DNA of 46,919 nt from a virus (IMGVR_UViG_3300036846_000438:1-46919), one strand, 5' to 3'; positions 727 through 46,172 are shown, counted from the stretch's first letter. Program-made: numbers and translations. The notes: generated by a model from the sequence alone, not told the origin.

Positions 727-1507
727 GATTGTCCTTTATGTCTGCGTCTATGAACATCTGCATGGTGGGGTTCCTCAGTACGCGGGGCAGAGCTAGTCGC
801 GTGCCCGTGGGGTAGGTCTCATGGGGACCCACAAGCATGTACGACTCCCACCTCTTTGTCTCTTGCCCCGACCCCTTCTTTACTACTCTCACCTCCCGTT
901 GGAACATGCGACCGATAACGTCGACGGCCGCCATCAGCGTACCCCTGGACACAGGGGACAGGTCGGGTACCCGCTCGTTCTCGCCCTCCTCGTTGTCCAC
1001 GCTACGTTCCTGTGCTAGGAAGATGCCGTGCATGGGCAGATTGCGAAAGAAGAGGATGTGGGGCTTCATCAGTTCCCCTACCTTGAGCCAGTCCTGCATC
1101 TTGGGTGTCTGGGGGTCTCGGTAGGGGTCTCTGTCCTCAGCCTCTTTGAGTACGTGCTTCATGCAGACATGCTGCATCTGGGTGACTGTGTCCAGGCAGT
1201 AACAAGTGAAGCGTCTGTCAGTCTTGCCCTCGACGCTCGCCCTCAAGTACCAGTAGGCGTACACCACGTCTGCCCAGTTCCTCGCTTGGAAGACGTGTAC
1301 GTCCTCGGCGTGACGCACTGACTTGGTACCCTTCTCGTTGATGTCTATGATGAGCGTCCCGGGCAACGTAGCGCCGAAGCGTGTCTTGCCCTTCTTGTTA
1401 GGCGCCTGTACGAGCACACGGGTGTAGGGATCGACTTCTCTCACGTCGATGATGCGCTTCTCAACTTCCTTGATCTTAGAACTTCTTGAGTCGTCGGCGC
1501 GAGCCAT
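716..1507 (-). CDS. Sak4-like AAA/RecA-fold ATPase (single-strand annealing/recombination)
   Basis: 263 aa. A P-loop of the form APNKKGKT lies at about residues 34-41, followed by a short LPGTLIIDI strand and a Walker B-like YCLDTVTQM at about 104. This is the architecture of Sak4/RecA-like phage ATPases. The neighbours (DUF669 ssDNA-binding protein downstream, PD-(D/E)XK nuclease upstream) form the typical recombination trio. Start ATG 1507 is preceded by GAAAGGACGGGG and overlaps the nuclease gene by 32 nt. One GGACACAGGG site lies inside (947-956). A general phage AAA ATPase of another kind cannot be excluded. Confidence 0.7.
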   Translation of the reverse strand: MARADDSRSSKIKEVEKRIIDVREVDPYTRVLVQAPNKKGKTRFGATLPGTLIIDINEKGTKSVRHAEDVHVFQARNWADVVYAYWYLRASVEGKTDRRFTCYCLDTVTQMQHVCMKHVLKEAEDRDPYRDPQTPKMQDWLKVGELMKPHILFFRNLPMHGIFLAQERSVDNEEGENERVPDLSPVSRGTLMAAVDVIGRMFQREVRVVKKGSGQETKRWESYMLVGPHETYPTGTRLALPRVLRNPTMQMFIDADIKDNHAE

Positions 1508-2718: not shown

Positions 2719-5109
2719 ACTGGGATCATCCCACGGTTTGGTCTCCCCCCAATGCTGCCCGACCTCGATCTCAGCTAGTATCGGTACATCTATCTGAGCC
2801 CCAAATACCTTTTCGACGTGGTCCATGTCTTGCATCGTGTCTCGAATGAGTGGAGCAATCTCATCCACGTGGTCGTCTCGAATCTCAAACATGAGTTGGT
2901 CGTGGGTAGTGCCGATAATTCTCGCCACGCGACTTGGGAGGGATGCCGCCAACCGCACGAGGGACACAAGCATGAGATCACTCGCGAGAGATTGGACTGG
3001 GGAATTGATGGCTTGTCGCTCGGCTTCAGCGCGTACCGACTGATCAGATGACTGCATGTCCGGCAGATGGCGTATACGTCCGAGAGGGTTTTGTACACGT
3101 CCGTACCGGGCAGCAAGCCGTTTCTGTCGGTCATGCCATGAGCGTAGACCCGGGTATGTCTCGTGGAACCTGTTATATACCCGCCGAGAGTCGTCGTAGG
3201 ATACCTCGATCCCATTAGCCCAACAGTAATCTCTGTAGCCACCTTTCTTCCCTTCTGTGCCGGGACCCATGCCGTATACCAGACCAAAGTTAGGATGCTT
3301 GCCCCATATGACTCGGTCGTCCTTGGTGATATCTTCCGGCAACTTGCGCAGAATGGACACAGCCGTGTTGGTGTGCATGTCTGCGCCTGAGTTCAGCACC
3401 CGCAGCATGGTGCGCTCATGGGCTAGCATGGCGGCTATTCTGAGCTCAATTTGCGAATAGTCAGCTTCGACAAAGATCCATCCTGGCGATGCTCCGAGGA
3501 TACTACGTATGAAAGGATCTCGAGGGACTTGTTGCAGGTTTGGACCTCGAGAGGAAAGTCGTCCGGTGACAGTTCCATGCAATAGGTAAGAAGTATGAAT
3601 TCTGCTTCGTTCATCTCGGCGCTCACCCCAGGGTAGTAGGTAGGTGGTCAACCATTTATGCCACTTGCGGTATTTCAGCAGCGCCTTGACGTACTCGCTC
3701 TGGGACTCGAGGGCGAACAGCACACCCTCTCTCGTGCTCGGGCTACCCTTGTCAGTCTCTTCTATCACTGGCAACCCTAGATCCCCGAACAGCCACGCCG
3801 CTACTTGTTGGGGTGAATTGTAGTTGATGCCCCCTGATGAACGATCCATGTACTTACGGAGCTTACCCAGTACTTCCTCCGCCCGCTCAGTACGCTCACG
3901 GAGTCTGTCGTCGTCTACCCAGATGCCGCCTCGCTCGATCTTAGTGAGAGCGTTGCTGGCAGGCATGATGAGCTTAGTGAATAGACGCGCGACCCTGATA
4001 TCCTCCGCCAGCCTGGGCTTGAACATCTCTCGCAGCCTGAAGGTGTAGTCACAGTCTTTGCCGTTGTATAGCGAGAGTCGTTTGAGAGCAACCCCCTGTG
4101 CGCCCTTGACTTCATCGCCGATGTCATAGTCGTTCGCCCCCAGATGCAGCTGAGCTAGGGGCTTGAGACCCTTAGCGTTGTTCTCGTCCAGCAAATGGGC
4201 ACCGAGCATAGTGTCGAACTTGACGTCTACGAAGATACCCGCGCTCGCGAGCCATCGCGCATCGAACTTGCCGTTGTGCCCCACCAGCTTAGGGTGCCCC
4301 TCGAGTACGGGCTTGAGCTTGCGTATGGTGTAGGTTGGGTTCAGTGTGCCGTCGGGGTGGTGGACAGGTACCACCGCTGCTGTGCCTGCTTCCCACGAGA
4401 AACCAATAGTCACTATCTGCGAGTCGCTGTGCCACTCCTCCAGCCCCGTGGTCTCAAGGTCGAACGCTACTACTGGGGCTCCCTTCAAACGGGCCACAAG
4501 CCAGTTGAGCTGGGATGGGAACCTGATGACCTTGACCTTGGTCTCGGGTCCTTCGCTGGGGGCTCCGCTGATGAGTCGAGCGAAGGCAGCGAAGTCCGCT
4601 TTGATTGTAGGGAGATAGCGAGGTGACCGTAATGCCGCTGCCGGATGAAAAGTCGGTAGTACGGTGCACCCTCTCCGATCGAAGGTTCTACCGCGGTACT
4701 TAGTAATACCAGACCTACCAGTCGTGACCTGAAGCGCAGTATTACCGAGAGAGAGTACATAGGCAGGGCTGACTCGTGAGATCTCTTCTGAGAGGTAAGT
4801 CTCAGAGCATGTCTTCGCCTCGCCTCGCGATGGCGTAGCGTTTCCTGGGGGTCTGCACTTGACGGCGTTGGTGATGTAGCACTTGTCCCGTGCGATGCCA
4901 GCGTCTTCGAGTAGTGACGTAAGAAGTCTTCCCGCAGGCCCGACAAACGCTTGGTGTGTTTCATCTTCCCTCGCTCCCGGCGCCTCGCCGACGATCATGA
5001 TGTCTGAGTCAATAGGACCTGTTCCCATCAAGCAGACCCACTCAGCGCCCTCGTGGAGTGGACACAGGGAGCAGGAGGGGTTGCGGACTTCGTCCCGCCA
5101 ATCAGTCAT
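2716..5109 (-). CDS. DNA polymerase I-type replicase with N-terminal uracil-DNA glycosylase domain
   Basis: 797 aa in three parts. Residues 1-180 are a family 4-like uracil-DNA glycosylase: GEAPG at 41-45, KCRPPGN at 84-90, FHPAA at 154-158, and cysteines 13, 16, 85 and 101 positioned as 4Fe-4S ligands. Residues 200-365 are a proofreading exonuclease (FDLET with D217/E219, NGKFD with D283, YNGKD with Y348/D352). The rest is a family A polymerase: motif A D550 in EADYSQIE, motif B K604-F608-Y612 in KHPNFGLVYG, motif C H736-D737-Q738. Gln replaces the usual Glu of the HDE motif. UDG-polymerase fusions are known in phages such as SPO1. It is the probable replicase. Confidence 0.93.
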   Translation of the reverse strand: MTDWRDEVRNPSCSLCPLHEGAEWVCLMGTGPIDSDIMIVGEAPGAREDETHQAFVGPAGRLLTSLLEDAGIARDKCYITNAVKCRPPGNATPSRGEAKTCSETYLSEEISRVSPAYVLSLGNTALQVTTGRSGITKYRGRTFDRRGCTVLPTFHPAAALRSPRYLPTIKADFAAFARLISGAPSEGPETKVKVIRFPSQLNWLVARLKGAPVVAFDLETTGLEEWHSDSQIVTIGFSWEAGTAAVVPVHHPDGTLNPTYTIRKLKPVLEGHPKLVGHNGKFDARWLASAGIFVDVKFDTMLGAHLLDENNAKGLKPLAQLHLGANDYDIGDEVKGAQGVALKRLSLYNGKDCDYTFRLREMFKPRLAEDIRVARLFTKLIMPASNALTKIERGGIWVDDDRLRERTERAEEVLGKLRKYMDRSSGGINYNSPQQVAAWLFGDLGLPVIEETDKGSPSTREGVLFALESQSEYVKALLKYRKWHKWLTTYLLPWGERRDERSRIHTSYLLHGTVTGRLSSRGPNLQQVPRDPFIRSILGASPGWIFVEADYSQIELRIAAMLAHERTMLRVLNSGADMHTNTAVSILRKLPEDITKDDRVIWGKHPNFGLVYGMGPGTEGKKGGYRDYCWANGIEVSYDDSRRVYNRFHETYPGLRSWHDRQKRLAARYGRVQNPLGRIRHLPDMQSSDQSVRAEAERQAINSPVQSLASDLMLVSLVRLAASLPSRVARIIGTTHDQLMFEIRDDHVDEIAPLIRDTMQDMDHVEKVFGAQIDVPILAEIEVGQHWGETKPWDDPS

Positions 5110-5892: not shown

Positions 5893-6704
5893 GACCAGTC
5901 GTACCCATCGTCGTAGGCGTGCTTGACATCTGCGTAGTAGCCGTCGGGGTCTAGCACCGGCAAGTCTCCCGCGAAGCAGTGCAGTGAGACGATGTGCATA
6001 GTGAGAGTGCCGGGGTGGGACCCCTTCACCCACAAGTCGCCACCCAGCTTCTCCCACACCCATTGCACCAGGCGACACGCCATATAGACATCGTCCATGA
6101 GATACCTGATGAGGTCACAGGACCGTATGAAGTAGGTCATGTTCAGCTCGCCCCCACGCAGCATGAAGTGGTAGCCCAGAGTGCAGGGTACCCGTTCGCC
6201 CTTGTTAGCAGCAGTGAGATCCTCGGGGAACCATACGGGCAGATATGCTTGCCGTGTGTAGGGGTGCTCGGCGAGTAGCTGGACGAGGTCGTCGAGGTCG
6301 CCGTAGTAGAACCTGATGCCGTGCCTGTGGTGGGATCCCATCGCATGCTTCGGCCACATGCGCTCGGGGTACGTGTGTGAGAACTTGCCCCCAGTCATGT
6401 GCTCCTCGTTCCCTCGCTGCGCGTAGGGCCACGTCGCTGCTGACGGCGGGGGATTGAGGGGCTGCCCGCTCACTCGCTCTTGGAAGTGGTCCTCTGCCCA
6501 GGGTAGACTGGGACGAATACCCACCTGCAGGGACACAGGGTCATGGGGTATCGGGTACTCGAGCACTACGTTACGCAGCTCTATCGTCGTCCACTGGGGA
6601 TCGTCCTTGAGCTCCTTCATCTGGTGTGGTGGCTCATTCACCGTAGCGCCAAACGACACCAACCTACCTGCTAGATTAGCGAAGATCTCTTGGAACTCAT
6701 TCAT
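5889..6704 (-). CDS. Thymidylate synthase superfamily enzyme, probable dCMP (hydroxy)methylase
   Basis: 271 aa. The TS core is readable: HPYTRQAYLPVWFPEDL (residues 147-163), the nucleophile Cys174 in RVPCTLGYHF, RSCD at 194-197, and HPG...MHIVSLH near 230-242. Aligning the DLIRYLMDDVYMA block with the canonical D..LG.PFN.A block puts Asp205 where dUMP-specific enzymes have Asn. An Asp here is the substrate switch described for T4 dCMP hydroxymethylase. I therefore favour dCMP over dUMP as substrate. Whether the product is hydroxymethyl- or methyl-dCMP cannot be told. It is coupled to the dCMP deaminase by an ATGA overlap. Confidence 0.82.
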   Translation of the reverse strand: MNEFQEIFANLAGRLVSFGATVNEPPHQMKELKDDPQWTTIELRNVVLEYPIPHDPVSLQVGIRPSLPWAEDHFQERVSGQPLNPPPSAATWPYAQRGNEEHMTGGKFSHTYPERMWPKHAMGSHHRHGIRFYYGDLDDLVQLLAEHPYTRQAYLPVWFPEDLTAANKGERVPCTLGYHFMLRGGELNMTYFIRSCDLIRYLMDDVYMACRLVQWVWEKLGGDLWVKGSHPGTLTMHIVSLHCFAGDLPVLDPDGYYADVKHAYDDGYDWS

Positions 6705-10129: not shown

Positions 10130-10155
10130 TACCCCCTCCTGTTGTGTATGTAAGG

Positions 10156-11565
10156 TCATCTTATCATCTCGCCGATCAACTCAGGCTTAGTGTGAATCAA
10201 CTGAGCTACTGCCTGCTTCGAGCGCAGCGCGACCCAAATGTACTCGTCCACAGTGTCAGTCGCCATCAGCACCTTGTAGTTACACGGCATCTTTTGCGGC
10301 GGGCGCCACGTGCGTCTCATGCTCTGCTCGAACTGCACGTAGTCGTAGGACAGCGAGTAGTAGACAGTGTCGTGTGCCGCCGCCAACGAAATGCTCAGGG
10401 ACCCTGTGGCTATCTGGGAAGCGAACACTGTGAGCTTGTCAGACTCCTCGAAGTGCGCGATGAATCTGTCCCGTTGGTCTTGCTTGATCTTGCCGTAAAA
10501 AGGTATGACGTGGTACCCAACTTCTTTACATGCTGCAGCCACAGTCCTCAGGTCGTCTATGAATCTGACGTACACCACGACCTTCTGCACCTCGTTCTCC
10601 ATGTACCCCTGCATGAGGTCTTTGAACACGCGCTCCTTCTCACGCCCCACGCGACGCTTGTGCTCGTTGCTGGCGAGGTAGCCCCCAGTGAGCTGCGACA
10701 GTCTCAATAGCCGAGTCAGCACCATAGGCGCCTCGAACTCAATGTCCTCGAAGTACACCAACGCCTCAGCTGCCATCTTGTCGTAGATCTTGCGTGACTC
10801 AACCAAGGACACAGGGACGATCTCGGGTGCTCCGCGCTTGGGCATGTCTACGCAGTCCTCGAGTTTACATGCGTAGGTATACGGCTCGATGCGCTGAAAG
10901 AGCTGCTTGAGATTGATGAGCTTGATGAGTTGGTGTCCCCCGTAGCCGCCCCAGACGCCGTACGTGCGTTTGAAGACTCCCCAGGAGCCGCCTAGGATCC
11001 CCTCGTCGATGTTGCGGTATTGACCGAACTGATCTAAAGGGTGATTACGTATCGGCGTCCCTGTCATGTTCAGGACGCGCGCGGCTAATTGACTGAGGAC
11101 GAAGGACGCCTTTGTCCGTTTACTGTTGGGGTTAGCGAGCGAGTGACCCTCGTCGAAGACGACTAGCGTCGGCGCATCCTGCAGGTAATGAGCGAGCTCA
11201 GTGAAGTGATCTACCTCAGTGACGCTCTTGAGATCGCCTGTCTCCTTGTCTCGTCTGTTGATCGTATACCTGAAGGTGCGGTCGTAGTTGACCACCTTCC
11301 ATCGTAGGGTCTTCGACCCGCAGTGCTCTAGCACCTGCAGGTTCCACACCCCTATAGCTGAGAGTGGACACACCACCAGCACTTGCTTGATATTGCCGAG
11401 CTGCTCTTGGATGCAGGCGTAGTCTATCGCCGTCTTCGTCTTACCTGTCCCCATATCCATAGGTAGCGCCCCGCCTACTTCTTTACACGGCTCGCTCAGT
11501 AGCTTCTTCAGTGCTGCTACTTGATGTGCCCAGGGTTTAGTTTGGAAGTGGTAGGAGTTACTCAT
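10156..11565 (-). CDS. SNF2/superfamily 2 DNA helicase
   Basis: 469 aa. Helicase motifs in order: PMDMGTGKTKTA (motif I, about 35-46), VVCPLSAIGVWN (Ia), VFDEGH (II), NMTGTPIRN (III), VVVYVRFIDD (IV), FASQIATGSLSISLAAA (V), and QSMRRTWRPPQ (VI, about 417-427). This is the SNF2-type layout seen in many phage replication helicases or remodelers. Start ATG 11565 overlaps the end of the previous gene. One GGACACAGGG copy lies at 10807-10816. Confidence 0.88.
   Translation of the reverse strand: MSNSYHFQTKPWAHQVAALKKLLSEPCKEVGGALPMDMGTGKTKTAIDYACIQEQLGNIKQVLVVCPLSAIGVWNLQVLEHCGSKTLRWKVVNYDRTFRYTINRRDKETGDLKSVTEVDHFTELAHYLQDAPTLVVFDEGHSLANPNSKRTKASFVLSQLAARVLNMTGTPIRNHPLDQFGQYRNIDEGILGGSWGVFKRTYGVWGGYGGHQLIKLINLKQLFQRIEPYTYACKLEDCVDMPKRGAPEIVPVSLVESRKIYDKMAAEALVYFEDIEFEAPMVLTRLLRLSQLTGGYLASNEHKRRVGREKERVFKDLMQGYMENEVQKVVVYVRFIDDLRTVAAACKEVGYHVIPFYGKIKQDQRDRFIAHFEESDKLTVFASQIATGSLSISLAAAHDTVYYSLSYDYVQFEQSMRRTWRPPQKMPCNYKVLMATDTVDEYIWVALRSKQAVAQLIHTKPELIGEMIR
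10158..10166 (-). promoter_or_regulatory. Extended -10 promoter (TGATAAGAT) at the end of the helicase gene
   Basis: Minus strand TGATAAGAT is an extended -10. The leader CTTACATACACAACAGGAGGGG resembles other leaders in this window (ACATAC plus a CACAA stretch before the ribosome binding site). It would drive the 99-aa protein, kinase, MazG and second synthase genes. The -35 is not convincing. Confidence 0.45.
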
Positions 11566-11821: not shown

Positions 11822-12125
11822 CCGCCCCGCCCCTGAATTTGATGCCGTCGGTGATGTCTTCGTGCTGTTCTTGGAGCCACCCCAGTATCGCCATGTCTTG
11901 GACACAGGGTCCCCCGCAATAGCCGGCGACGATGCCCTGGTGGGTGACGAACAGAATAGTGGTCTCGCCCAGCTTGGAGCCGCAGGTCATGCACTTGCCC
12001 TCAGTGAGCGGCCGATACACCTCCAGCATGTCCCCCTCGAGCATATCGTCCACGAATCCTATCGCCTCGATGAGAGTCCTAACGTTGCTTGGCACGTCTT
12101 CGAACACGTCTGGGTCTTCTGCCAT
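11805..12125 (-). CDS. Hypothetical protein with putative zinc-binding cysteines, 106 aa
   Basis: An acidic N-terminus is followed by KCMTCGSKL and GYCGGPC, compatible with a CxxC...CxxxC zinc site. Start ATG 12125 has GGAGGTCGT directly upstream. It overlaps the 3' end of the preceding gene by 47 nt in a different frame. Contains GGACACAGGG at 11900-11909. No family recognised. Confidence 0.55.
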   Translation of the reverse strand: MAEDPDVFEDVPSNVRTLIEAIGFVDDMLEGDMLEVYRPLTEGKCMTCGSKLGETTILFVTHQGIVAGYCGGPCVQDMAILGWLQEQHEDITDGIKFRGGAGDTVE

Positions 12126-12591
12126 ACGACCTCCACTCTATGGTAGTTGCTTTAGGGTTGTGCAGCCTGACGTAAAAGTCTTTAGTCGAGACGCTGCACA
12201 CGGGACAGTGCACGGACCGCTTGAGCGTGTCCGCCTCGAACCGCCGGAGCTTGATGCAATAGGGGCACCAATAGATGCCGCGCGCGTTGTAGTCAGGCAT
12301 AAGATCCTCGTAGGTGATGACCTTACGGCGGTATCTCTTGCCTCCCCGTTTGACTATCTTGTAGCTGACTTGCTCGTGCTCGGTGATGGACACAGGGGGA
12401 GGGAAGCCGATGTTGCAACACCTCAGGGTGACGCCCTTGCGCCCCGCTTGCTCGAGCTTAGAGTACAGCTTCAGAGCTGCTCCAAAGTCTTCATCGAACC
12501 TCTTGTGGGCGTACCCGTTGGACGATGCCGGGGGACGCCATATCACCTCCCAGCGCGCGCCGTTGTTCAGGGAGTTCTGACTAAGTGCCAT
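12079..12591 (-). CDS. Zinc-ribbon protein with basic C-terminus, 170 aa
   Basis: WCPYC at about residue 108 and HCPVC at about 128 form a two-knuckle zinc ribbon. The final 20 residues are Arg-rich (RRPRRVRRRAKQR). Nucleic-acid binding is likely, but the specific role is unknown. Start ATG 12591 overlaps the tiny upstream frame by 11 nt. A GGACACAGGG copy lies at 12388-12397. Confidence 0.6.
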   Translation of the reverse strand: MALSQNSLNNGARWEVIWRPPASSNGYAHKRFDEDFGAALKLYSKLEQAGRKGVTLRCCNIGFPPPVSITEHEQVSYKIVKRGGKRYRRKVITYEDLMPDYNARGIYWCPYCIKLRRFEADTLKRSVHCPVCSVSTKDFYVRLHNPKATTIEWRSYGRRPRRVRRRAKQR

Positions 12592-12825: not shown

Positions 12826-12866
12826 GGGAACGGTCCTCCTTTTTGTGTATACGTGCGTTCACGTAC

Positions 12867-12895
12867 ATCGTATCAACGTGGTCAACCAGTGTAAA
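12867..12895 (-). promoter_or_regulatory. Leftward sigma70-type promoter
   Basis: Minus strand TTTACA (12895-12890), 17-bp spacer, TACGAT (12872-12867) with an extended TGA just before the -10. Downstream is an inverted repeat TACGTG-AACG-CACGTA, then CACAAAAAGGAGG. It fires leftward into the 12.8-to-10 kb gene block, back to back with the PrimPol promoter. Confidence 0.75.
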
Positions 12896-12928
12896 CTGCG
12901 TGGGATGGGAGTGGACACAGGGGTCGGC

Positions 12929-12955
12929 TTGGGGCTCGTTTTCCAGTGATACGAT
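12929..12955 (+). promoter_or_regulatory. Rightward promoter of the primase-helicase operon
   Basis: TGATACGAT (extended -10, TACGAT at 12950-12955), with a weak TTGGGG at 12929-12934. A GGACACAGGG site (12913-12922) lies just upstream. Divergent from the 12867-12895 promoter, so the roughly 160-bp gap is a bidirectional control region. Confidence 0.55.
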
Positions 12956-12987
12956 TGTTGATTTTTCACCTATCTCGGAGGCGAGTC

Positions 12988-13788
12988 ATGGATCCAATGG
13001 AGTTCTTGCGGAGGGTATGGTCTAAGCAGGGTGAGGGTGTGGGTTTCATATGCTCACGCAGGAGCAATACCTCGTGGTTTGAGAAGGCAGTATCGTACCC
13101 CCGAGAGCTGTCGGCGTTTGAGTTGGAGAGGTATGCCGATGGCGACAACTACTTCAGCCCCAATCTTTACGGCAGTCGTACTCGCAGGAGGAACAACGTA
13201 CTGCCTTCCCGGTGGCTGTACGCTGATCTCGACGGCGTAGATCCTAGTGGGTTAGACGGCAAGTTACGCCCGACAGTTGCGTGGTCAACAAGTGAGGGCC
13301 GATATCAGGCGATGTGGTTGACACAGCCTCTTGAGAGAGCAACTCACGAGAGACTGAATAAGCAGCTGACTTACCTAGTGGGTGCAGACAAGAGTGGGTG
13401 GGACGCTACGCAAGTGCTTCGTATCCCGGGGACGAAGAACTACAAGTACGAGAGTGAGCCCATTGTGGAACTCTTGTGGTTCAACGATGGCGTCCGAAAA
13501 ATACAGGGGTCAGGGATGGAGGTACCCGAGGACACAGGGGGAGGGGTGTTCAGGGTTGCCGAGTTAGGTGGGAAGGAGGTACCCGCTTGGATCCGACAAA
13601 GGTTGCGTACACAAGTACCTGCAGGGGACAGGAGCAGGGTCCTCTTCAAGATGGAGCTAGACTTGTTATCCAAGGGTTGGTCGAAGGCTGAGGTCTTCAC
13701 CCTGCTTCGTTCGTCAGTGTGGAACAAGTTCGATGATCGAAGACTGTCGGACGATATCCGCAGGGCAGCGAAGAGGGTCGGACGATGA
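12988..13788 (+). CDS. PrimPol/RepB-type DNA primase
   Basis: 266 aa from ATG 12988, which has CGGAGG 7 nt upstream. The catalytic D-x-D is seen in WLYADLDGVD (D80, D82). It is followed by WSTSEGRYQAMW near 99-110 and a DATQVLRIPGTKNYK block at 139-153, the order of motifs in archaeo-eukaryotic-type primase domains of phage RepB/PrimPol proteins. It would make primers for the UDG-polymerase. Overlaps the helicase gene by an ATGA. One GGACACAGGG copy lies inside (13530-13539). Confidence 0.8.
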   Translation: MDPMEFLRRVWSKQGEGVGFICSRRSNTSWFEKAVSYPRELSAFELERYADGDNYFSPNLYGSRTRRRNNVLPSRWLYADLDGVDPSGLDGKLRPTVAWSTSEGRYQAMWLTQPLERATHERLNKQLTYLVGADKSGWDATQVLRIPGTKNYKYESEPIVELLWFNDGVRKIQGSGMEVPEDTGGGVFRVAELGGKEVPAWIRQRLRTQVPAGDRSRVLFKMELDLLSKGWSKAEVFTLLRSSVWNKFDDRRLSDDIRRAAKRVGR

Positions 13789-14822
13789 GTGACGACGGCG
13801 AACTCAGACTAGTCAGGTTCGACCCCTCCAAGGCGAGGTCAGCAAGGTGGATGTGGAGGGATAGTTATGGGGGCTATCTGCTAAAAGGCGACCTCAACTT
13901 TGTCACCGGTAACCCCAGCGCAGGCAAGAGTAACTTGGGTGCGTGGATCCTAGCTGCACTTACCGAGGCGAGTCTACCCGGGTGTCATCAACGCAGACCC
14001 GTCAACTGCGCGTTGATAGCCACTGAGGATGACTTCAACGAGAAGTGGGGTCCGATGGTCATAGCTAACGGCGGGAACATGGATCGCGTCTTCTTGGTAG
14101 AGCACAAAGAGTACGGGTTGATAGATCTCCAACGTCAACTGCAACCAACGATGGAACTGTTCAGGCGTTGGAGGGTCAAGGCTGTGCTGATCGACGCCAT
14201 CCAGGACCACCTTGGAATAGCTGACGCCAACCACAACCAGCAAGTCCGCAAAGTTCTCACGCCATTGCAGAGAGCGCTAAGAGGGGTAGATGCGTCAGCC
14301 ATAGCATACGCCCACCCAAACAAGAAGGGCGATACCTTCGAGGCGATGGTGAATGGTGCCCGAGCGTTCTATGCTGTCCCCAGGATAGCAACTTACTTAG
14401 GCACTGACCCTCAGGATGAGAAGCGCAGGGTGTTGGTTCAGCGGAAGAACAATGCTGCCGCTGACTTGGCGATCTCAAAGGAATTCAGGATAGTAGGAGA
14501 CCACGTAAGACCTAACGGTCGGAATGTGGAAACTTCCCGGGTTGTCGGGATGAGGGATTGCGAGCTGACCTTTGATGACTTACTAGCTCCGAGCAAACGC
14601 GGACCCACGAGCTATGTCGATGATGAGTTACTTCTGCTTCTCAGTAAAGGTCCGTGCCTATACAAGGAAGCACTGGAGAAGATCGGCTGCCACCGGCACA
14701 CCCTAGATAAGGCGATTGTGAGGGTGGGAGCGAGAACTAAAAAGTATGAGTACCAAGGCCCCAGTTTTATCATTCCTCGCGGGCATACGTCGGGTGCTCG
14801 AGAAGCTACGTCGCGCGCGTAG
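13785..14822 (+). CDS. RepA/AAA_25-like RecA-fold replicative helicase
   Basis: 345 aa. Walker A GNPSAGKSN at about residues 41-49, Walker B VLIDAIQD at about 137-144, and an AYAHPNKKGD block near 175-184 match RepA/DnaB-related hexameric ATPases of the AAA_25 type. The C-terminal 80 residues look like a winged helix (YVDDELLLLLSKGPCLYKEAL). Coupled to the primase by ATGA, so primase and helicase are made together. Confidence 0.82.
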   Translation: MSDDGELRLVRFDPSKARSARWMWRDSYGGYLLKGDLNFVTGNPSAGKSNLGAWILAALTEASLPGCHQRRPVNCALIATEDDFNEKWGPMVIANGGNMDRVFLVEHKEYGLIDLQRQLQPTMELFRRWRVKAVLIDAIQDHLGIADANHNQQVRKVLTPLQRALRGVDASAIAYAHPNKKGDTFEAMVNGARAFYAVPRIATYLGTDPQDEKRRVLVQRKNNAAADLAISKEFRIVGDHVRPNGRNVETSRVVGMRDCELTFDDLLAPSKRGPTSYVDDELLLLLSKGPCLYKEALEKIGCHRHTLDKAIVRVGARTKKYEYQGPSFIIPRGHTSGAREATSRA

Positions 14823-15214: not shown

Positions 15215-15831
15215 CAGTTGCCTCCTAGTAGCTCGTCCACTTCTTTATCCTCATCCGTGGACACAGGGGACGGTTGGTCCTCGTCCGCATCATCGGCCTG
15301 TGTCCTCGCCGCTTCTTCCAGTGCTTGTTCCGTCGCGGCTCTCAAGTCAAAGGTGTGTGAGTCCTGCCATTCCCTGATCCATTGCTTGCACTGGACGGTT
15401 AGCTCTTCGAGTTTCTTCTCTCTCTCGAATAGCTTGCGGATCCTCGTCAGGTCTTTCTCTGGGATGTCAGGTACCAGGAAGTGTGTGGCTCTACCGTAGC
15501 TGTACATCTGGACCTGATCGTTCTTACCCTCGTCCGTTCCGTCGTTGATCCATATGAGCAGTCTGTACCTATCGCTGGCGTGGAACCCCCGTGCGAGAGC
15601 CGGGTATAGGTTGGGTCCGTCGAGATAAGTGAACGGTACAGCCACGCGGATCTGTTGCTTGCGATACTCCATACGCGCGGCGCGTAGAGCTTGCTTCATG
15701 CTGTCTCCCTGGGCTATAACGCCGTGCCCATCTCGCTCCCGTACAAGGAACTTGCCCTCGGAGTCTACGTGGATCTCGACCTGGTGGTCGAGGATAGTCT
15801 TGGTGGTCACTAACAATGTTCGTTGCCTCAT
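15214..15831 (-). CDS. Hypothetical helical protein with acidic tail, 205 aa
   Basis: Begins MRQRTLLVTTKTILDHQVEI. A beta-rich first half is followed by a long charged helix (DLTRIRKLFEREKKLEELTVQCKQW is split by no breaks) and an acidic end (DEDKEVDELLGGN). ATG 15831 is preferred; the frame stays open to 15924, but that extension is Cys/Arg-rich and lies in repeat-dense DNA. No good ribosome binding site is seen before 15831. Not recognised. Contains GGACACAGGG at 15259-15268. Confidence 0.55.
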   Translation of the reverse strand: MRQRTLLVTTKTILDHQVEIHVDSEGKFLVRERDGHGVIAQGDSMKQALRAARMEYRKQQIRVAVPFTYLDGPNLYPALARGFHASDRYRLLIWINDGTDEGKNDQVQMYSYGRATHFLVPDIPEKDLTRIRKLFEREKKLEELTVQCKQWIREWQDSHTFDLRAATEQALEEAARTQADDADEDQPSPVSTDEDKEVDELLGGN

Positions 15832-15966
15832 TTCGTTTGCATCGAACGTCGATTGCACGGCGTCCCTGGCACGTCCCTGGGCGTTTTTGCGACACTCCCA
15901 CACATCGATGCATGATCGATGCACACAATTCGCGTTTCGACGTTAGGGACGTCCTGGGAACGTCAA
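15832..15966. repeat. Iteron-rich non-coding segment, candidate replication origin or control region
   Basis: Repeats seen: ATCGATGCA at 15904-15912 and 15915-15923, with an inverted near-copy TGCATCGA at 15838-15845. CGTCCCTGG occurs at 15861-15869 and 15872-15880, with related CGTCCTGGG at 15950-15958 and inverted AGGGACG at 15945-15951. The orientation of the genome-wide GGACACAGGG sites flips between 15268 and 17539, spanning this segment. Origin function is inference. Confidence 0.45.
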
Positions 15967-15971
15967 AATGA

Positions 15972-16058
15972 GGGAGCCCCCCACCTTTCGGCAGGAGGCT
16001 CCCGGGTTGGTCACACAGTCAGCAGGTGCTGACCTTGAGGCGGAGGCAGTGCCTCAAG
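15972..16058 (-). terminator. Compound terminator: three consecutive hairpins
   Basis: Downstream of the 16060-16941 gene: CTTGAGGC/GCCTCAAG (16034-16041, 16051-16058), GTCAGCA/TGCTGAC (16018-16024, 16027-16033) and GGGAGCC/GGCTCCC (15972-15978, 15997-16003) with a CGAAAG-type loop region. On the minus strand the last is followed by TCATTTTGAC. This fits rho-independent termination of the strong promoter at 16981-17009. Confidence 0.65.
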
Positions 16059-16059
16059 C

Positions 16060-16941
16060 TTAGTCCTCGTCCTCCTCGACCACGCGCTTGCGGCGAGTCT
16101 TGGTAGCGGTAGTCTTGGTAGCGGTCTTCTTCGCTACAGGCTTCTTCGTTACAGGCTTCGCCTGTGGCTTCGCGGCAGCCTTCTTTGCCCTCATCTTGTC
16201 GAGCGACTCACGTTGGATCTTCTTGTGCTCGCCGGCACTGATGAGCTTCCCGATCTTGACTACCTGCGGAGAAGTTAGCGATCTCCACTCGTACCTGTTG
16301 GAGTCCGGGTCGACGGGGATGTTGTTCTTCCGGAGCAGCATGCGGAGTGAGCGGGAGTCGATTCCGAAGTGTTCTGCGACCTCGGCACTACCGACCTTGC
16401 CGTCAGCTGCAGCTCTGGATTGGGTCTTCTTGGGGGTAGACTTTGCCTTGGTGGACGTACCCTTACGGGTACGTGCGGCTCGACGCGGAGCTTCCTCTTC
16501 TTCCTCCTCGTCTTCGTCTTCCTCCTCGTCTTCCTCTTCCTCGTCTTCTACCTCGTCCTCGGGCTCCTCTTCTTCGTCCTCGTCTTCTTCTTCCTCGACT
16601 TCTTCCTCCTCCTCGAAGTCCTCGAGCTCCTCGATCTCAGCTTCCAGGTCCTCGATCGCCTCCGACTCTTCCAGCTCTTCCTGCTCGACTGCACGCTTCC
16701 GGTTCTTGGTACTTGCCACGATGATTACCTCTCGTAGGGATGACTGTAGTTTGACTAACGAGTGCTTCCTGGTACCTACTGCTGTCCTGAAAGACTTTGA
16801 CTTGGGCGGGCGTCTCAGAGACTTTATTACGATCTCATTGCCCGTGGGTGAACGGTACACGGCGCGGTAAGTTCTCATGAGCTTCCAATTGATATGGACA
16901 GGCGCCGTTTGTTTCGGGGTTGGAAATCTACGTGGAGCCAT
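16060..16941 (-). CDS. Acidic-basic nucleoid-like protein with HTH-type domain, about 293 aa
   Basis: Three segments: a basic N-terminus (about 1-75), an almost pure Glu/Asp stretch (about 83-152), and a domain SAEVAEHFGIDSRSLRMLLRKN at about 187-208 that reads as helix-turn-helix with an NRYEW wing. The end is a Lys/Ala/Thr tail like histone H1. A GTG at 16719 preceded by GAGAGG is a plausible internal start, giving a form without the N-terminal part. Strong promoter upstream and terminator downstream suggest an abundant monocistronic product. It may bind phage or host DNA; unproven. Confidence 0.6.
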   Translation of the reverse strand: MAPRRFPTPKQTAPVHINWKLMRTYRAVYRSPTGNEIVIKSLRRPPKSKSFRTAVGTRKHSLVKLQSSLREVIIVASTKNRKRAVEQEELEESEAIEDLEAEIEELEDFEEEEEVEEEEDEDEEEEPEDEVEDEEEEDEEEDEDEEEEEEAPRRAARTRKGTSTKAKSTPKKTQSRAAADGKVGSAEVAEHFGIDSRSLRMLLRKNNIPVDPDSNRYEWRSLTSPQVVKIGKLISAGEHKKIQRESLDKMRAKKAAAKPQAKPVTKKPVAKKTATKTTATKTRRKRVVEEDED

Positions 16942-16980
16942 CACCTCACTGTGTGACCTTATTGTGTATGCAATACGGGG

Positions 16981-17009
16981 ACACTATCAGGAAGTCAGTC
17001 AGATGTCAA
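16981..17009 (-). promoter_or_regulatory. Strong leftward promoter TTGACA-17-TAGTGT
   Basis: Minus strand consensus -35 TTGACA (17009-17004), 17-bp spacer, -10 TAGTGT (16986-16981) with a TGA extension. It directly follows the stop of the DUF2786 gene and precedes the acidic-basic protein gene by about 40 nt. Confidence 0.75.
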
Positions 17010-17013
17010 GGGG

Positions 17014-17700
17014 CTATTGCCCGAGCTTCCCTGAGGTTATGTCCGCCTCTCGTCCCGCCTTGTCCCCATGCACCATGCCCTCGACGTTGCTCAGCCCTCT
17101 TCGGCGAGTCTCTCGGACGTTGGTGAACAAGTCTTGTGCGTAGCGATCGTTTTGTGCGTCCCGGGCTAGGACAAGATCAGTGCCCTTGGTGTGGGCATGC
17201 TCAAGGTAGTCTCGTTGCTCTTGGAGCCTGGTATGGATCCTCCGTCCCGCTCGGTCGTAAAAGGCTCTGTTGAAGGCGTTGGGGTTGGATGGCATGCTCG
17301 CCCTACGCGCAATCGTAGATTGCGATTTCAGCCAGGGAACGAGTGCTTCCCAGAGAACCTCGACTGCTTTGATGTTGTCTGGGGTACCGATCAAGGTCCA
17401 TCGGGTCACGTTCTTGGCTGTGCGGACGTAGACGACTTTGCAGTTGAACGGAATGCTTATGTAGTGTAGCAGCATGCCTTTCCATTGCATCGTCTTGCCG
17501 TCCACGAAGATCTCTGTGTGAGTCACCCCCGACCCATTCCCTGTGTCCTCGCCGATCTCGTACATCTTGAGGTCGTGCTCGAACATGAGCTTTTGTGCCT
17601 TCTCCATGGCAACGTCTCGCTCATTGTCCGTACCGCCCCGGGCTGGGTCCGCTAGGTTGAGTAACTTACGGACCTTGGCAATGACTTCGTCATTGGTCAC
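17014..17700 (-). CDS. DUF2786-containing protein, 228 aa
   Basis: VIAKVRKLLNLADPARGGT followed by NERDVAMEKAQKLMFEHDL near the N-terminus is the recognisable DUF2786 helical module, frequent in actinobacterial and phage proteins of unknown role. The rest contains a beta-rich core and a helical C-terminus. Start GTG 17700 overlaps the previous stop (GTGA) with GGAGG upstream, rather than the longer frame from 17766. Carries a CCCTGTGTCC site (17539-17548), the first in the flipped orientation. Confidence 0.75.
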   Translation of the reverse strand: MTNDEVIAKVRKLLNLADPARGGTDNERDVAMEKAQKLMFEHDLKMYEIGEDTGNGSGVTHTEIFVDGKTMQWKGMLLHYISIPFNCKVVYVRTAKNVTRWTLIGTPDNIKAVEVLWEALVPWLKSQSTIARRASMPSNPNAFNRAFYDRAGRRIHTRLQEQRDYLEHAHTKGTDLVLARDAQNDRYAQDLFTNVRETRRRGLSNVEGMVHGDKAGREADITSGKLGQ

Positions 17701-21752: not shown

Positions 21753-21990
21753 GGCATCACAACATGATGCTAACAATACGTCACCGTGTGCGCATGACAT
21801 CAGATGTGCGTGACGTCATATGATGCCGCCACGATTCAACATTGGCCGCGCATTCGCGAACCCCTGCCACCAGTGCCCGGGGGCGTTCGGGACATGCGAT
21901 CCCGCGCGTAATAAGTGATGGGCCCGTGAAGTTTAGGCGCTTTTTCGGAGTTCCCAGCTGCCCCCCTGTGTCCACTGCCTAACCCCGCCA
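21753..21990. other. Divergent non-coding region upstream of the nozzle gene
   Basis: About 240 bp without a convincing gene. It contains CATCATG/CATGATG dyads, the perfect palindrome TGACGTCA (21811-21818), CGTCAC/GTGACG repeats shared with the cassette hairpins, and a CCCTGTGTCC site at 21964-21973 at the -35 position of the downstream promoter. Short frames here lack ribosome binding sites. Confidence 0.5.
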
Positions 21991-22007: not shown

Positions 22008-23534
22008 GTGTCTCTGCAGCGGGTACCGATAAACAACTTCCGCGGTGGTCTCAATACTCGAGACGGCCCGTTCGATCTTCAGCCTAACGAGTCACCTGAC
22101 TTGATGAATGTGACACTGACCTCCCTCGTTGGTCAGTTACAGGTGAGGCAGGGGAAGTCGCAGGTTGGCACTGCTGTCCCTGGCATCATCGATCACGCTA
22201 GGCAAGCTGCTCTCACTGGCGGACATCGCTTTCTGATGTGCTCTATAAACGGGGCTGTCTACTCTTGCGATGCCGGCGGTAACTTCGTTCTCAGATTCAC
22301 TGGCACTGCTGGCACTATTTGGGACTGGGCTCAGATACCAGACGCCACCGGCGCTGACAAGCTGTGGATGATGAACGGAGTAGATCCCCCACAAAAGTGG
22401 GACGGTGTGTCCTCGGCTACCACTGCCTGGGCCGGTAGTCCCCCCAATGGTAACCGAATTCTCGTCTGGCGTAACAAGATGGTAGTGATAGGGGTCGGCG
22501 CTACTCCCTCGCGTATGTATCTGTCCAAGGCTGGCGACCCCGAGGCTACCACCGGGGGGTATGACTTCATTGATCTACGAGGGGACGACTTCGAGCTCGA
22601 GGCCCTGACTGATCTCGCGGTACTGTCCGACAGGCTGTATATCTTCAAGGAACGAAGCGTGTGGCTAATGACGGACCCTGTGTCCTTTGCCAACCGGCGG
22701 GTAGGCGAGCCCGGGTGTCATGCTAGGTTCCAGTCCGACGTGATAGAGGACAAATTATACTTCTTCAATCGACAAGGTTTGTGGTCGACGGCTGGAGTCG
22801 CTATCGCTCTCGAGACTGGCAGCATCACCAACTACTTCCCGCAAAATCTGAACGCTGCGGCGATCGACAAGGTCCGCATAGTAGGCACCCAGGACTCGTA
22901 TCCTAGGATCCTGCTGAGCATACCTATAGGTAACGCTACTCAGAACTCCGTGCTGATCGAGCTGGTGCCGCACATCAACTTCCGTCGCATCGGCGGACGG
23001 CGTTATCTGCTGCTGCCAGCGTTCATGCTGCATACTTTCAGCGCTACGAGCCTAGCTGCATGGAAGCCTACGCCGAGTTCACCGTGGGGGGTATACGGTG
23101 GGGACCCTAATGGCAAGTTGTACCAATACTTTTACGGGCAAACGGACGACGGCACTGAGGTCTCAGCGAGATGGCAAAGCGCGTGGATGGCGATACAAGG
23201 CGAGGAGCCCTTCGAGCGTATCCGACGGTGCAACGTTGAGCTGAGTGGCGACTGTGTAGTGGACATTTTCCGTGACTTCGAGCAGGCGCCTACATTTTCT
23301 CAAGCCCTGCCTAACCCGCCCAAGCCCGCCAGTGACCCTATTGTCTGGGACGGTGGGGGTACATGGGATCTGGCTGGGGGGACGTGGGACCCAGCGAAGG
23401 TATACAGATTCTCCCGTGTGAGGCCTGAGAGTCGCGGCAGGTTCCACGCTATCAGATTCCGCACCATACCGGGAGGGTCGCCTTTCCTGATCAATGTAGC
23501 TGAGTTCGCCGTCAGAGGCGGCAAGGAGCACTGA
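22008..23534 (+). CDS. Podoviral tail nozzle / stabilisation-type protein, 508 aa
   Basis: Begins MSLQRVPINNFRGGLNTRDG, with NESPDLMNV following. This NFxGGLNT...NESPxxxN opening is shared by podoviral tail nozzle and similar needle-base proteins. The body has repeated beta segments, including KLWMMNGVDPPQKWDG and LSDRLYIFKERSVW, that suggest a beta-propeller. No signal peptide. Followed directly (TGATG) by the collar-domain fibre gene. First gene of the rightward structural block; leaderless GTG start. Confidence 0.7.
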   Translation: MSLQRVPINNFRGGLNTRDGPFDLQPNESPDLMNVTLTSLVGQLQVRQGKSQVGTAVPGIIDHARQAALTGGHRFLMCSINGAVYSCDAGGNFVLRFTGTAGTIWDWAQIPDATGADKLWMMNGVDPPQKWDGVSSATTAWAGSPPNGNRILVWRNKMVVIGVGATPSRMYLSKAGDPEATTGGYDFIDLRGDDFELEALTDLAVLSDRLYIFKERSVWLMTDPVSFANRRVGEPGCHARFQSDVIEDKLYFFNRQGLWSTAGVAIALETGSITNYFPQNLNAAAIDKVRIVGTQDSYPRILLSIPIGNATQNSVLIELVPHINFRRIGGRRYLLLPAFMLHTFSATSLAAWKPTPSSPWGVYGGDPNGKLYQYFYGQTDDGTEVSARWQSAWMAIQGEEPFERIRRCNVELSGDCVVDIFRDFEQAPTFSQALPNPPKPASDPIVWDGGGTWDLAGGTWDPAKVYRFSRVRPESRGRFHAIRFRTIPGGSPFLINVAEFAVRGGKEH

Positions 23535-24274: not shown

Positions 24275-24278
24275 CCCT

Positions 24279-26483
24279 GTGTCCACGATCGCGCCTATAT
24301 ACCTCCCCGCTACAGGTCAGATCAAGGACGAGCCTGTCAAGCAGAACTTCGAGTTCATTGAGTCTCATTGGCCGACTGGGGGTAGTGGTGGCGGAGGGGG
24401 CGGCACGGGGGCGGTAGTTAGTGCTAAAGCTTATCGTAGTGCGGCGATCAGCACACTAAATGGCTTCGCCAAGATTCCCCTCGACACTCTAGTCTATGAC
24501 ACTGGGGGCATGTGGGACTCAGCGAACGGTAGATTCCTCATCGTTACTCCTGGCTACTACCAAGCTAATGCTGTCGCGGGTGCGCCCGTCAGCGGCGCTG
24601 GGTATCGTATTCAGGCTGGCATCTTCCACAATGGTGGCGGGGTGGCCATGAGTGAGGGCAACTCTGGCACCAACGGCAACAATCCCATACCGTCTATCTC
24701 AGACATCGTCTATTGCGTCAAGGGCGACTACCTCGAGCTGTATATTTGGTCCAACGCAGCTGGGTGGGCAGTCACTACTTCTGCGGCTTATTGTTTTCTG
24801 TCCATATCCCTAATTCAAGTGGGGCCACAGGGTCCACCTGGGGTGCCTGGGTCGACTGGCGCTCCCGGCCCTACGGGTCCTACTGGTGCTACAGGGGCGA
24901 CTGGCGCTACAGGTGCTGCGGGGGCTGACTCGACGGTACCCGGGCCGCCTGGTGCCACGGGTCCTGCGGGTCCTATAGGTTCTACGGGCGCTACAGGGGC
25001 AACTGGCTCAACGGGGCCACAGGGACCAATAGGTAATACGGGTCCAGCTGGGCCGACAGGTCCTACTGGGCCGGCGAGCACTGTGCCGGGTCCCCCCGGC
25101 GCAACGGGTGCTACTGGTCCCGCTGGGGCGACGGGCGCGACTGGCGCAACGGGACCTACGGGACCAACTGGGCCAGCGGGTACGCCGGGCACGGTCGCTT
25201 ACACATCGAGGATGCACCGCACTGCCGCGTTCACAGCGGGTGCGACCGGCTGGATCAAGATCCCGCTCGACACCGCTGACTTCGATACGGGCTCGAACCT
25301 CAACCTAGCGAACAGTCGCTGGGTGTGTCCGGCGACAGGCTACTACCAGGTTGAGGGGGCGTCGATGTTCGCTCAGTTGACAGCGAACGTGAACACGGCG
25401 TTCTGGGCCGGTCTGTTCGTCAACGGTTCTGTGACCTCTTACGGCGACCGGATCAGCAACGTTGACGCGCAGGGCGCTGTGTCCTCGACCGTCACTGACG
25501 TGCTCCATCTGAGCGCGGGCGATTACGTCGAGCTATGGACTTACGTCAGCGGCTTGTGGCCGCTCTACGTGACCGCTCCGGCATCAGCGGCCAACTATCT
25601 GTCGATCTCGATGGTTGGCGCCGGGCCGCAGGGACCGCCAGGACCGCAAGGGCCCACGGGGCCCACAGGACCCCTACTGACAGCGCGATGGGCGACTGTG
25701 TCTCCGCTGCCTGCGTATACAGTGAGTGGCGGTGTGCTGACTGCATCAGCAAACGGGGCGCTCGTAGTGGACGGGGTGACGCCGGGCACCAACGCCGTGG
25801 TGCTGGTAAAGGACAATACGAGCGACTGTGGCCTTTATCTCGTTACTGTGGTCGGTAATGCCACTACGCCATGGAAGCTGACTCCATCGACTAACCAGCC
25901 GGCGACTGATATGCCTGTCTACATCTACTGCGGTGCGGGTCAGACGCCCGGCACACAGGACAAGCAGACGTGGATACTAGCGAGGGCTGCTGGCTCAGCT
26001 TCGCCGTATGAGTCGCTGAGTCCTACGGTGATGCCGGGTGCAAGAGTGACGCTGAGCACCCCGCAGGCGATAGCGACAGGTGCTACTCCTGTACAAATTC
26101 TCTTTGACACGGTGATCTTTGCGCAGGCGGGCGCTGTCCGTGCTAGTGGCGGCGTGCAAGTGCCTTCGGCGGGGCTCTATCAAGTCGACGCTAATGTATT
26201 GCTCAACGTCAATGCGCCAACGGGCCGTATTGACTTCGGCGTTTACAACGTGACTCAGAACCCCTCGCCAACTGATGTTGGGGCTGTCTGTGCAGGCGCC
26301 GTAGTCTTCAACCACGCCGCTGGTCTATATCAGAGCATTGTAGCTAGCGCTGTTATCCAGGCCAACGCCAACGACGTCATCGGCGGCATGGTGGGCAATC
26401 AAAGTGGGGCCCCCGGTGTCTCGGGCGGCATCTACGGCGGCTCGAACTGGACGTCGCTGAGCGTGGTGAAAGTGAGCACATGA
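24279..26483 (+). CDS. Collagen-like tail fibre with three C1q/TNF-like domains, 734 aa
   Basis: Three similar beta domains at about 46-180, 307-447 and 591-734 share the pattern (I/P)xDT...P-x-x-G-x-Y-Q-x-x-A and end LSIS(L/M) or LSVV, as in C1q/TNF-type jelly rolls. Between the first two lies about 125 residues of uninterrupted Gly-X-Y repeats (181-304); a short Gly-X-Y tract follows the second (about 449-465). Such proteins form trimeric, stalk-like fibres. Start GTG 24279 overlaps a CCCTGTGTCC repeat. The stop overlaps the terminase start. Confidence 0.85.
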
Positions 26484-28965: not shown

Positions 28966-29158
28966 CGGTAGACTTCAAAGAGCCGCTATCGGCCCTATCA
29001 AAAAGTCCAAGCAGGGCTCCCTCCATTCAGCACTGAAGATCCCCTCGAGCCAGAAGATCCCTGTGTCCACTATCAATCAGCGCCTCGCGGGCAATCCTAG
29101 TGAGGCGATGCGCAAGAAGCTCCAGTTCGCGAAGAATGCGAGATCGTGGGGTAAGTAG
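28955..29158 (+). CDS. Hypothetical basic protein, 67 aa
   Basis: Basic (MASNGRLQRAAIGPIKKSKQ...MRKKLQFAKNARSWGK). TTG 28955 preceded by GGTGG is the most economical start; GTG 28946 and ATG 28913 are in-frame alternatives with larger overlap. Contains CCCTGTGTCC at 29059. Its TAG overlaps the next GTG. Confidence 0.5.
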   Translation: MASNGRLQRAAIGPIKKSKQGSLHSALKIPSSQKIPVSTINQRLAGNPSEAMRKKLQFAKNARSWGK

Positions 29159-33005: not shown

Positions 33006-33905
33006 ATGGAAGCATCAGTTGCCGCACCAGCTCAAGGGACGCCACCCGCTGCTCAGCCGCCGGCCAGCGGCCAAGGGTCTAGCGGGCAAGGTCAGTCTAC
33101 AGGCTCCCAGCAGCAACAGGGCAGTTCCTTCAATTGGGGTCTATTCCCCAACGTCCCTGAAAATCAACGCGAGCTCCTACAACCTCACCTGACCAACGTG
33201 CTTGGCCATGTGACCCGTATGGAGCAGCAGTACGCGCCGTATAAAAGTCTCATGGATCAGGTCACTCCAGACCAAGTCCAGAACCTTCTCACGTTTCTGG
33301 GTAACTACTCAACGGACCCTGTGTCCACGTGGTTGGGACTGGCACAGTCGCTTCAGGAGGAAGGTCTGATCCAAAATCCTGAGTTCTCCGTCGATTCGAT
33401 ACAGGCACTCTTGAGTGCCCCAGGTCCTATGGACGGGGTGGAGATGGGAGACGTGCCGTCGTGGGCTCAGCAGATGATGACCGACCAGCAATCGGTCATG
33501 CAGTACATCAACCAGCAGCAGGAAGCTGAGAATCAGCGAGCTGCCGCTGATGAGTCCCGTCAGCAAGAAGCCCTTCTCACTGAGGCAAAGGGGACTATCA
33601 GGGAGAATTTGAAGGCATCGGGGATCCCAGACGATCTCGTATCCGATGAGCAGATAGTAGCCGCACTAATCGTCCACAAGGGCGATATTTCCACTGCGGC
33701 TCAGAGTTTCACTGGTCTGAGGGACGGGTTTCTAAAGGACTTCACGACTAATAACTCAAACGGCAGCCGTGCGCCGACAGTCAGAGGAGAAATGCCTCAG
33801 GCGCCTAAGCAAGGGCTAAACCCCCGTAGGGGCGATCCCTTCCGCGAAGCGACTGTAGGTGCTCAGCAGTTCCTCGCTCAAAGCGCCGCGGCTGAAGGCA
33901 GCTGA
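33006..33905 (+). CDS. Putative scaffolding protein, 299 aa
   Basis: Disordered Gln/Ser/Pro/Gly N-terminus (1-45), then a helical, acidic and Gln-rich body (SLQEEGLIQ, QQEAENQRAAADESRQQEAL), immediately upstream of the capsid gene. That combination is typical of podoviral scaffolds that shape the procapsid and leave or are degraded. It carries a CCCTGTGTCC site at 33317. Confidence 0.65.
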   Translation: MEASVAAPAQGTPPAAQPPASGQGSSGQGQSTGSQQQQGSSFNWGLFPNVPENQRELLQPHLTNVLGHVTRMEQQYAPYKSLMDQVTPDQVQNLLTFLGNYSTDPVSTWLGLAQSLQEEGLIQNPEFSVDSIQALLSAPGPMDGVEMGDVPSWAQQMMTDQQSVMQYINQQQEAENQRAAADESRQQEALLTEAKGTIRENLKASGIPDDLVSDEQIVAALIVHKGDISTAAQSFTGLRDGFLKDFTTNNSNGSRAPTVRGEMPQAPKQGLNPRRGDPFREATVGAQQFLAQSAAAEGS

Positions 33906-45874: not shown

Positions 45875-45875
45875 A

Positions 45876-46172
45876 CTACTCTCTGACACGGGGCGGGAGC
45901 GATGTCAGTATTTGCTCCCGCTCTTCGTCAGTCAATTCGTCCATCGTAGTCAGGGGCCACACTTTCGCCCTGAGCAGTACGTTCTCTGCACCGTCCCTGT
46001 TCAAGTGGGGCAGACGACGCAAAACATCGTATACTCGCGTGCGTCCTAGCGATTCTGGGGGACGTTCTAGGAGCTCGCGAACACTGATTCGATGATCACT
46101 GAGGGCAGCGAACAACTCAGCGTTAGCAGCTCTTGTATCGCGCGCCTTATCTAGGCGCTTTTCTCTAGTCAT
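45876..46172 (-). CDS. mIHF-like DNA-binding protein, 98 aa
   Basis: The region ISVRELLERPPESLGRTRVY followed by DVLRRLPHLNRDGAENVLL resembles actinobacterial integration host factor (mIHF), with its conserved basic helix and H2TH-like repeat. ATG 46172 overlaps the VRR-NUC stop by 8 nt. It would bend or compact DNA in replication or packaging. Convergent with the carboxypeptidase gene with only one base between. Confidence 0.6.
   Translation of the reverse strand: MTREKRLDKARDTRAANAELFAALSDHRISVRELLERPPESLGRTRVYDVLRRLPHLNRDGAENVLLRAKVWPLTTMDELTDEEREQILTSLPPRVRE

Follow-up and report, generated by a model that had tools for sequence, protein, structure and literature searches.

The window analysed here is the whole of an IMG/VR virus record from a soil phage (46,919 bases), in which the 10-mer GGACACAGGG, read on the opposite strand as 5'-CCCTGTGTCC-3', occurs 19 times against 0.13 expected in dinucleotide shuffles (sd 0.34). 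The sites are spaced on average about 2.4 kb apart, and no other 10-mer of the window reaches this frequency. Their positions, together with those of the replication genes among which they lie and of the intervals in which their orientation switches, are collected in Table 1.

Table 1. Motif sites, selected genes and orientation switches of the window (PVS, Pro-Val-Ser codons; DTG, Asp-Thr-Gly codons; sense and antisense refer to the gene that holds the site)
Feature	Position	Strand	Remarks
Motif GGACACAGGG	947..956	+	In-gene, antisense, PVS
Motif GGACACAGGG	5060..5069	+	Antisense, near start of PolA gene
Motif GGACACAGGG	6531..6540	+	Antisense, PVS
Motif GGACACAGGG	10807..10816	+	Antisense, PVS, within SF2 helicase gene
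Motif GGACACAGGG	11900..11909	+	Antisense, at gene overlap
Motif GGACACAGGG	12388..12397	+	Antisense, PVS
Motif GGACACAGGG	12913..12922	+	Intergenic, directly upstream of primase gene
Motif GGACACAGGG	13530..13539	+	Sense, DTG, within primase gene
Motif GGACACAGGG	15259..15268	+	Final plus copy before switch
9/10 match GGACACAGGC	15296..15305	-	Faces the 15259 copy across 27 bp; earliest possible switch, the facing pair being suggestive only
Motif GGACACAGGG	17539..17548	-	First exact minus copy; sense, DTG, in DUF2786 gene
Motif GGACACAGGG	21964..21973	-	Intergenic
Motif GGACACAGGG	22676..22685	-	Antisense, PVS
Motif GGACACAGGG	24275..24284	-	Spans gene junction and GTG start
Motif GGACACAGGG	29059..29068	-	Antisense, PVS; exact in two relatives (78% nucleotide identity)
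Motif GGACACAGGG	33317..33326	-	Antisense, PVS; GGCCACAGGG or AGCCACAGGG in three relatives
Motif GGACACAGGG	36287..36296	-	Antisense, PVS
Motif GGACACAGGG	36437..36446	+	Single orientation exception; sense, DTG; kept in one relative (78% nucleotide identity)
Motif GGACACAGGG	37744..37753	-	Antisense, PVS
Motif GGACACAGGG	45101..45110	-	Antisense, PVS; last minus copy before junction
RepB-type archaeo-eukaryotic primase	12946..13788	+	Catalytic domain (aa ~17-180) joined by a flexible linker to a helix-bundle domain (aa ~201-277); putative motif reader
AAA_25 RecA-like helicase, primase partner	13785..14822	+	AAA_25 part fused to primase in GTE2, Eleri, Jasmine and Shocker
Orientation-switch interval	15269..17538		Candidate origin side of the map
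Second switch interval, right-hand part	45111..46919		Runs on to 946 across the junction; end of minus-biased arm
Cas4-like PD-(D/E)XK exonuclease (PDDEXK_1)	1476-2495		Basis: Pfam

The product of the primase gene matches the Pfam family PF16793 (RepB_primase; E 9.2e-11, 42.4 bits against a cutoff of 24.3) and phrog_3123, and an HMM comparison pairs it with PDB entry 3h20, the RepB' protein of plasmid RSF1010 (3.2e-4). Its AlphaFold model (pLDDT 85.6) consists of a catalytic domain, a flexible linker and a helix bundle, and has 3h20 (4.7e-11) and 3h25 (3.4e-7) as its top Foldseek matches. As judged by sequence and by modelled fold, the primase is a homologue of RepB', which is also its closest solved homologue; D94, D96 and D148, invariant in 48 primase sequences, would correspond to D77, D78 and D134 of RepB'. 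The gene travels with those for PolA, an SF2 helicase, an AAA_24 ATPase and the Cas4-like exonuclease, a module that is syntenic between the window and the Gordonia terrae phage GTE2.

Most of the sites lie inside genes, and 13 of the 16 in-gene copies are antisense to the gene that holds them. Nearly all of these antisense copies read Pro-Val-Ser on the coding strand (C CCT GTG TCC, codons spaced) and all three sense copies read Asp-Thr-Gly (G GAC ACA GGG), a regularity that might be taken for a coding artefact in which a Pro-Val-Ser peptide written with preferred codons yields both the word and its antisense orientation. We give this explanation next to no credence, since synonymous shuffles, which retain 0.2 copies where 16 are observed, refute it; moreover, 11 of the 13 Pro-Val-Ser tripeptides of the proteome use exactly this one of the many possible encodings, and intergenic copies exist. 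The preference for one frame is probably explained well enough by the cysteine codon that the remaining two antisense frames would bring in. Selection therefore acts on the DNA word itself, and the proteins have accommodated the word, not the reverse. The 8-mer GGACACAG without the following GG shows no polarity, which makes the full 10-mer the oriented unit, and the flanks of the 19 copies have no sequence in common. An unconstrained EM motif search drifted to codon periodicity and was discarded.

All 19 copies and their strands were confirmed as originally described, plus from 947 to 15268 (9/9) and minus from 17539 to 45110 (9/10), with the exception at 36437. Position accounts for 18 of the 19 sites (best two-arc partition of the circle, permutation p 0.003; p 0.038 if strands are permuted only among sites of like gene strand), and the two sites that had been held to follow position and not gene strand, at 13530 (plus site in a plus gene) and 17539 (minus site in a minus gene), do so. 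The second switch had been placed at the contig junction, and this junction is real: bases 1-204 overlap 46242-46445 at 87% and 204-344 overlap 46779-46919 at 98%, end overlaps with strain variation that close the record on itself as a circle of about 46.2 kb. The right-end copy of the overlap region (46242-46919) carries an extra HNH-like gene (46439-46777) that is absent from the left-end copy (1-344), the two ends being variants of one region. Nearby, on the minus strand at 45876-46211, lies the gene of a small protein that resembles by eye the actinobacterial integration host factor (mIHF), for which no Pfam match was found. Cumulative GC skew over the whole genome, proposed as a check of the first switch, has its low region near 12-19 kb and its maximum near 36 kb, the curve being confounded by gene direction. 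Head-to-head motif pairs near the primase, considered as an origin signature, gave no consistent pattern.

An over-represented word with the core TGTG accompanies this primase family in diverse phages. A search with the primase returned 80 loci from very different phages, and in 75 of them hexamers were scored relative to a Markov background. CACA/TGTG is part of the top hexamer in 29 of these 75, against 2 of the 41 random viral loci (Fisher 5e-5; Mann-Whitney p 3e-13 for the best CACA score), a control drawn with one 16-mer whose shorter loci (median 10.9 kb) give it somewhat lower power. Only two of the 41 random contigs encode the primase, and in one of these two CACA is enriched more strongly than in any other of the 41. 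Of the 28 complete genomes with the primase, 22 have a CACA hexamer at the first rank; a TGTG hexamer is not top-ranked in G010, G013, G014, G020 and G027. In G010 (IMGVR_UViG_3300049987_000002), with a primase 44% identical to that of the window, CACGGA/TCCGTG and TCACGGA rank highest and may represent yet another version of a priming word, and two further primase-bearing loci (L091 and L092) have a strong extra word, ATTTCGCG/CGCGAAAT, with 15 copies against 1.4 to 2.1.

The named phages follow the same pattern. GTE2, with a primase of the same family, has CCACACC 45 times against 11.6, while GTE7, also a phage of Gordonia terrae and provided with an AEP-TOTE primase, shows no enrichment. 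D29, which has other primase genes, shows no enrichment of a CACA/TGTG word; the same method recovers from it the word TGTCAAG, which resembles the D29 stoperators. The Arthrobacter phage Jasmine, chosen as a control, proved strongly enriched in CCACAG and was then found to encode the same primase family, and the Microbacterium phage Shocker, whose primase is divergent, carries 45 copies of a word of its own, CTGTAAAG. Shocker (L244/L257) also carries a second word, TACCCTA, in 25 copies, many of them clustered near the record ends.

These phages bear on two further explanations. Since all motifs of the window but one point toward about 16 kb, the word could be a KOPS- or packaging-type polar guide for a translocase or terminase; the window, GTE2 and Eleri, however, share the word type despite different virion gene modules, and Shocker, a relative of the window by its capsid protein, has a different word. 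The presence of the word has thus in part already proved uncorrelated with the terminase family, and we regard such a guide as very doubtful. The word could also be a Chi-like site, protecting or stimulating recombination at broken forks, for a recombination nuclease that would be either RecBCD/AddAB of the host or the Cas4-like exonuclease of the phage. The PDDEXK_1 nuclease and the recombinase-like AAA_24 ATPase are indeed present, in the syntenic module that travels with the primase, and, Chi sites being leading-strand biased, the direction of the strand bias would fit. Nevertheless, GTE2 and GTE7 share one host species and the word occurs in GTE2 only, the one with this primase, which makes a host enzyme unlikely as the reader; D29, with PolA and a phage exonuclease, has no enrichment, and the word differs between closely related phages. 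On these grounds a Chi-like role appears unlikely to us.

In capsid-protein relatives with the same gene order GGACACAGGG is not numerous, and variants stand in its place: AGCCACA in three complete genomes (G005, G006 and G008), of which it is the most over-represented 7-mer relative to synonymous shuffles, and GGCCACAGGG in a fragment. The word varies by lineage, with GGACACAGGG in the window and AGCCACA, CCACAGG, CCACACC, GGCCACAC or CTTTACAG elsewhere. A TGTG core is found in the motif of most relatives, and the window word CCCTGTGTCC contains GTG. Individual sites turn over, as few of them are shared with relatives at 75-78% identity. A word that varies among relatives around a constant core speaks for a reader encoded by the phage.

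The orientation of the words was compared across genomes with the same primase by rotating or flipping each one so that the primase is on the plus strand and by taking as sites the genome's own top word. The right arm was defined as beginning 2.5 kb downstream of the primase and ending, round the circle, 15 kb upstream of it, limits that coincide with the window's two switch points. In the pooled set, the CACA strand of the right-arm sites is plus or minus in the ratio 187:344 (p 9e-12) and that of the left-arm sites is even (176:163; right against left, Fisher 1.5e-6), tests that treat sites as independent and whose significance near relatives inflate somewhat, G029, G032, G035 and GTE2 being related Gordonia phages; in a less redundant genome set the pattern is the same (p 2.8e-5 for right-arm plus genes). 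The arm limits for the pooled counts, the GC skew and the logistic model were chosen after viewing binned data, and a simpler limit at 2.5 kb gives the same result, with right-arm ratios of 71:151 in plus genes, 27:47 in minus genes and 30:54 in intergenic regions. In the logistic model for 27 other genomes, arm has an effect (z -4.64) and gene strand does not (z 0.27), the gene calls of IMG/VR records being those of a simple purpose-written caller. Orientation thus follows map position and not gene strand, which upholds the original prediction that position rather than transcription sets it. Comparison with relatives also qualifies that prediction, because the perfect left-arm polarity of the window is not general: 9/9 sites are plus in the window, the three nearest relatives are weakly plus (27:20) and the wider set is unbiased. 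Two-arc tests of single relatives were mostly not significant, the positional bias becoming visible on pooling only, and Eleri, the sole substantially rearranged relative tested for polarity, gave no clear outcome.

The pooled set also bears on whether the words are repressor sites like the stoperators of Cluster A mycobacteriophages, which are transcription-oriented and exist as lineage variants. The number of sites, their asymmetry and their variation between relatives are similar, and the 13 of 16 in-gene sites antisense to their genes would suit such a role. It seems highly unlikely to us all the same, given that gene strand has no effect in the 27 genomes, that most window sites lie inside genes, that no integrase or repressor was among the proteins searched (part of the window's genes), and that very differently built phages sharing the primase have this type of word in common.

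GC skew was measured at four-fold sites and averaged over plus and minus genes, which removes the part due to transcription. The replication-linked component is +0.040 in the right arm (p 0.009) and -0.009 in the other arm, and the positive value implies that the plus strand is leading in the right arm, so that TGTG lies on the lagging-strand template there. This enrichment on the lagging-strand template is seen in the pooled right arm; most genomes do not show it in the left arm. Together with the pooled arm bias, the skew supports an orientation of the motif by replication. The origin-to-terminus-like polarity that had been proposed is retained in this respect. What is revised is the nature of the motif, for which the evidence favours a primase recognition site over a guide like KOPS or Chi.

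In our judgement, the RepB-type archaeo-eukaryotic primase of the phage probably starts its primers at CCCTGTGTCC, which would serve as its recognition sequence on the lagging-strand template. Replication would start near 15-17.5 kb, adjoining the primase and helicase genes, and forks would run outward to meet near the junction, where the second switch lies. With forks in this direction the TGTG strand would be the lagging-strand template, on which the primase would lay primers at CCCTGTGTCC, its helix-bundle domain presumably reading the GTG core. Homologous and related enzymes provide precedents: the pRN1 primase needs GTG in the template, where its helix bundle binds it (PMC8076596), in ssiA of RSF1010, RepB' is proposed to initiate at a GTG (PMC4434180), and the NrS-1 phage primase has a preference for GTGG/GTGA (PMC8718748).

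Several results do not fit this primase reading well. Beyond the window's nearest relatives the left arm shows no bias, whereas a bidirectional origin would, if the lagging-strand model held strictly, bias it the reverse way, and in the window itself the GC-skew component of the left arm is positive (+0.06) instead of negative; an even left arm in most phages may mean that this arm is copied in both directions. The 10-bp site is, moreover, longer than the GTG core of the characterised primases. Because the primase travels with a replication module, another protein of that module, or the helicase partner, could be the reader, with the word serving as a signal for assembly, restart or regulation and the primase being only a passenger, and the synteny of the whole module between the window and GTE2 is compatible with this. 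Such a reader is in our opinion improbable, as the GTG required by homologous primases is part of the word and as D29 and GTE7, which have another primase, are without the word.

The arrangement proposed for the window differs from each of the systems that it resembles. RSF1010 has a homologous primase (by Pfam, HMM and fold) and sequence-specific initiation at template sites, ssiA and ssiB, with a proposed GTG start. However, it carries one 40-nt hairpin ssi site per strand and replicates by leading-strand synthesis, whereas the window has about 19 short sites genome-wide; with 19 copies and unshared flanks, its motif is not an ssi site of the RSF1010 type. NrS-1 is likewise a phage with an archaeo-eukaryotic primase (a primase-polymerase), a helix bundle and GTG-type template words (TTTGGTTA; GTGG/GTGA), while the window word is a strict 10-mer. 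In pRN1, an archaeal plasmid, the helix bundle of the primase ORF904 reads GTG on a single-stranded DNA template, as is proposed for the window's reader, but GTG alone is required. The stoperators of Cluster A mycobacteriophages are also asymmetric oriented sites, 20-30 per genome, with lineage-specific variants; they are read by the immunity repressor and oriented by transcription, unlike the words pooled here, on which gene strand is without effect. Chi and KOPS motifs of chromosomes share the polarity around an origin-like point, but are read by the host, whereas the window word goes with a primase encoded by the phage.

Only a few archaeo-eukaryotic primases, studied in vitro or in plasmids, are known to prime at specific sequences, and we found no report of genome-wide over-representation of primase sites in phages in the open-licence literature. 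We incline, by a narrow balance, to the broader view that the phages with phrog_3123 primases form a large, mostly unrecognised group with a lineage-specific, genome-wide priming code that co-evolves with the primase, is embedded in coding sequence and is polar enough for the fork map of an uncultured phage to be read from its sequence. If this is true, hundreds of phage genomes record the template word of each primase, from which primase specificity could be predicted directly; the coevolution of a replication enzyme with dozens of sites in the genome could be studied, and fork direction could be mapped in uncultured phages.

The annotation of these primases varies among records. Primase-helicases of phrog_3123 are labelled 'RecA-like recombinase', 'DNA recombinase' or 'primase' in actinophage records (L256:2332-4197, L245:16643-18325, L242:39509-41506), and phrog_3123 itself is listed as of unknown function. 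In the three nearest relatives of the window (G005 44849-46803, G006 23051-21163, G008 8667-6785), the primase catalytic domain is encoded in one frame and the helix bundle with the helicase in another, overlapping or adjacent frame, which may point to expression by frameshifting, the split point differing from that of the window.
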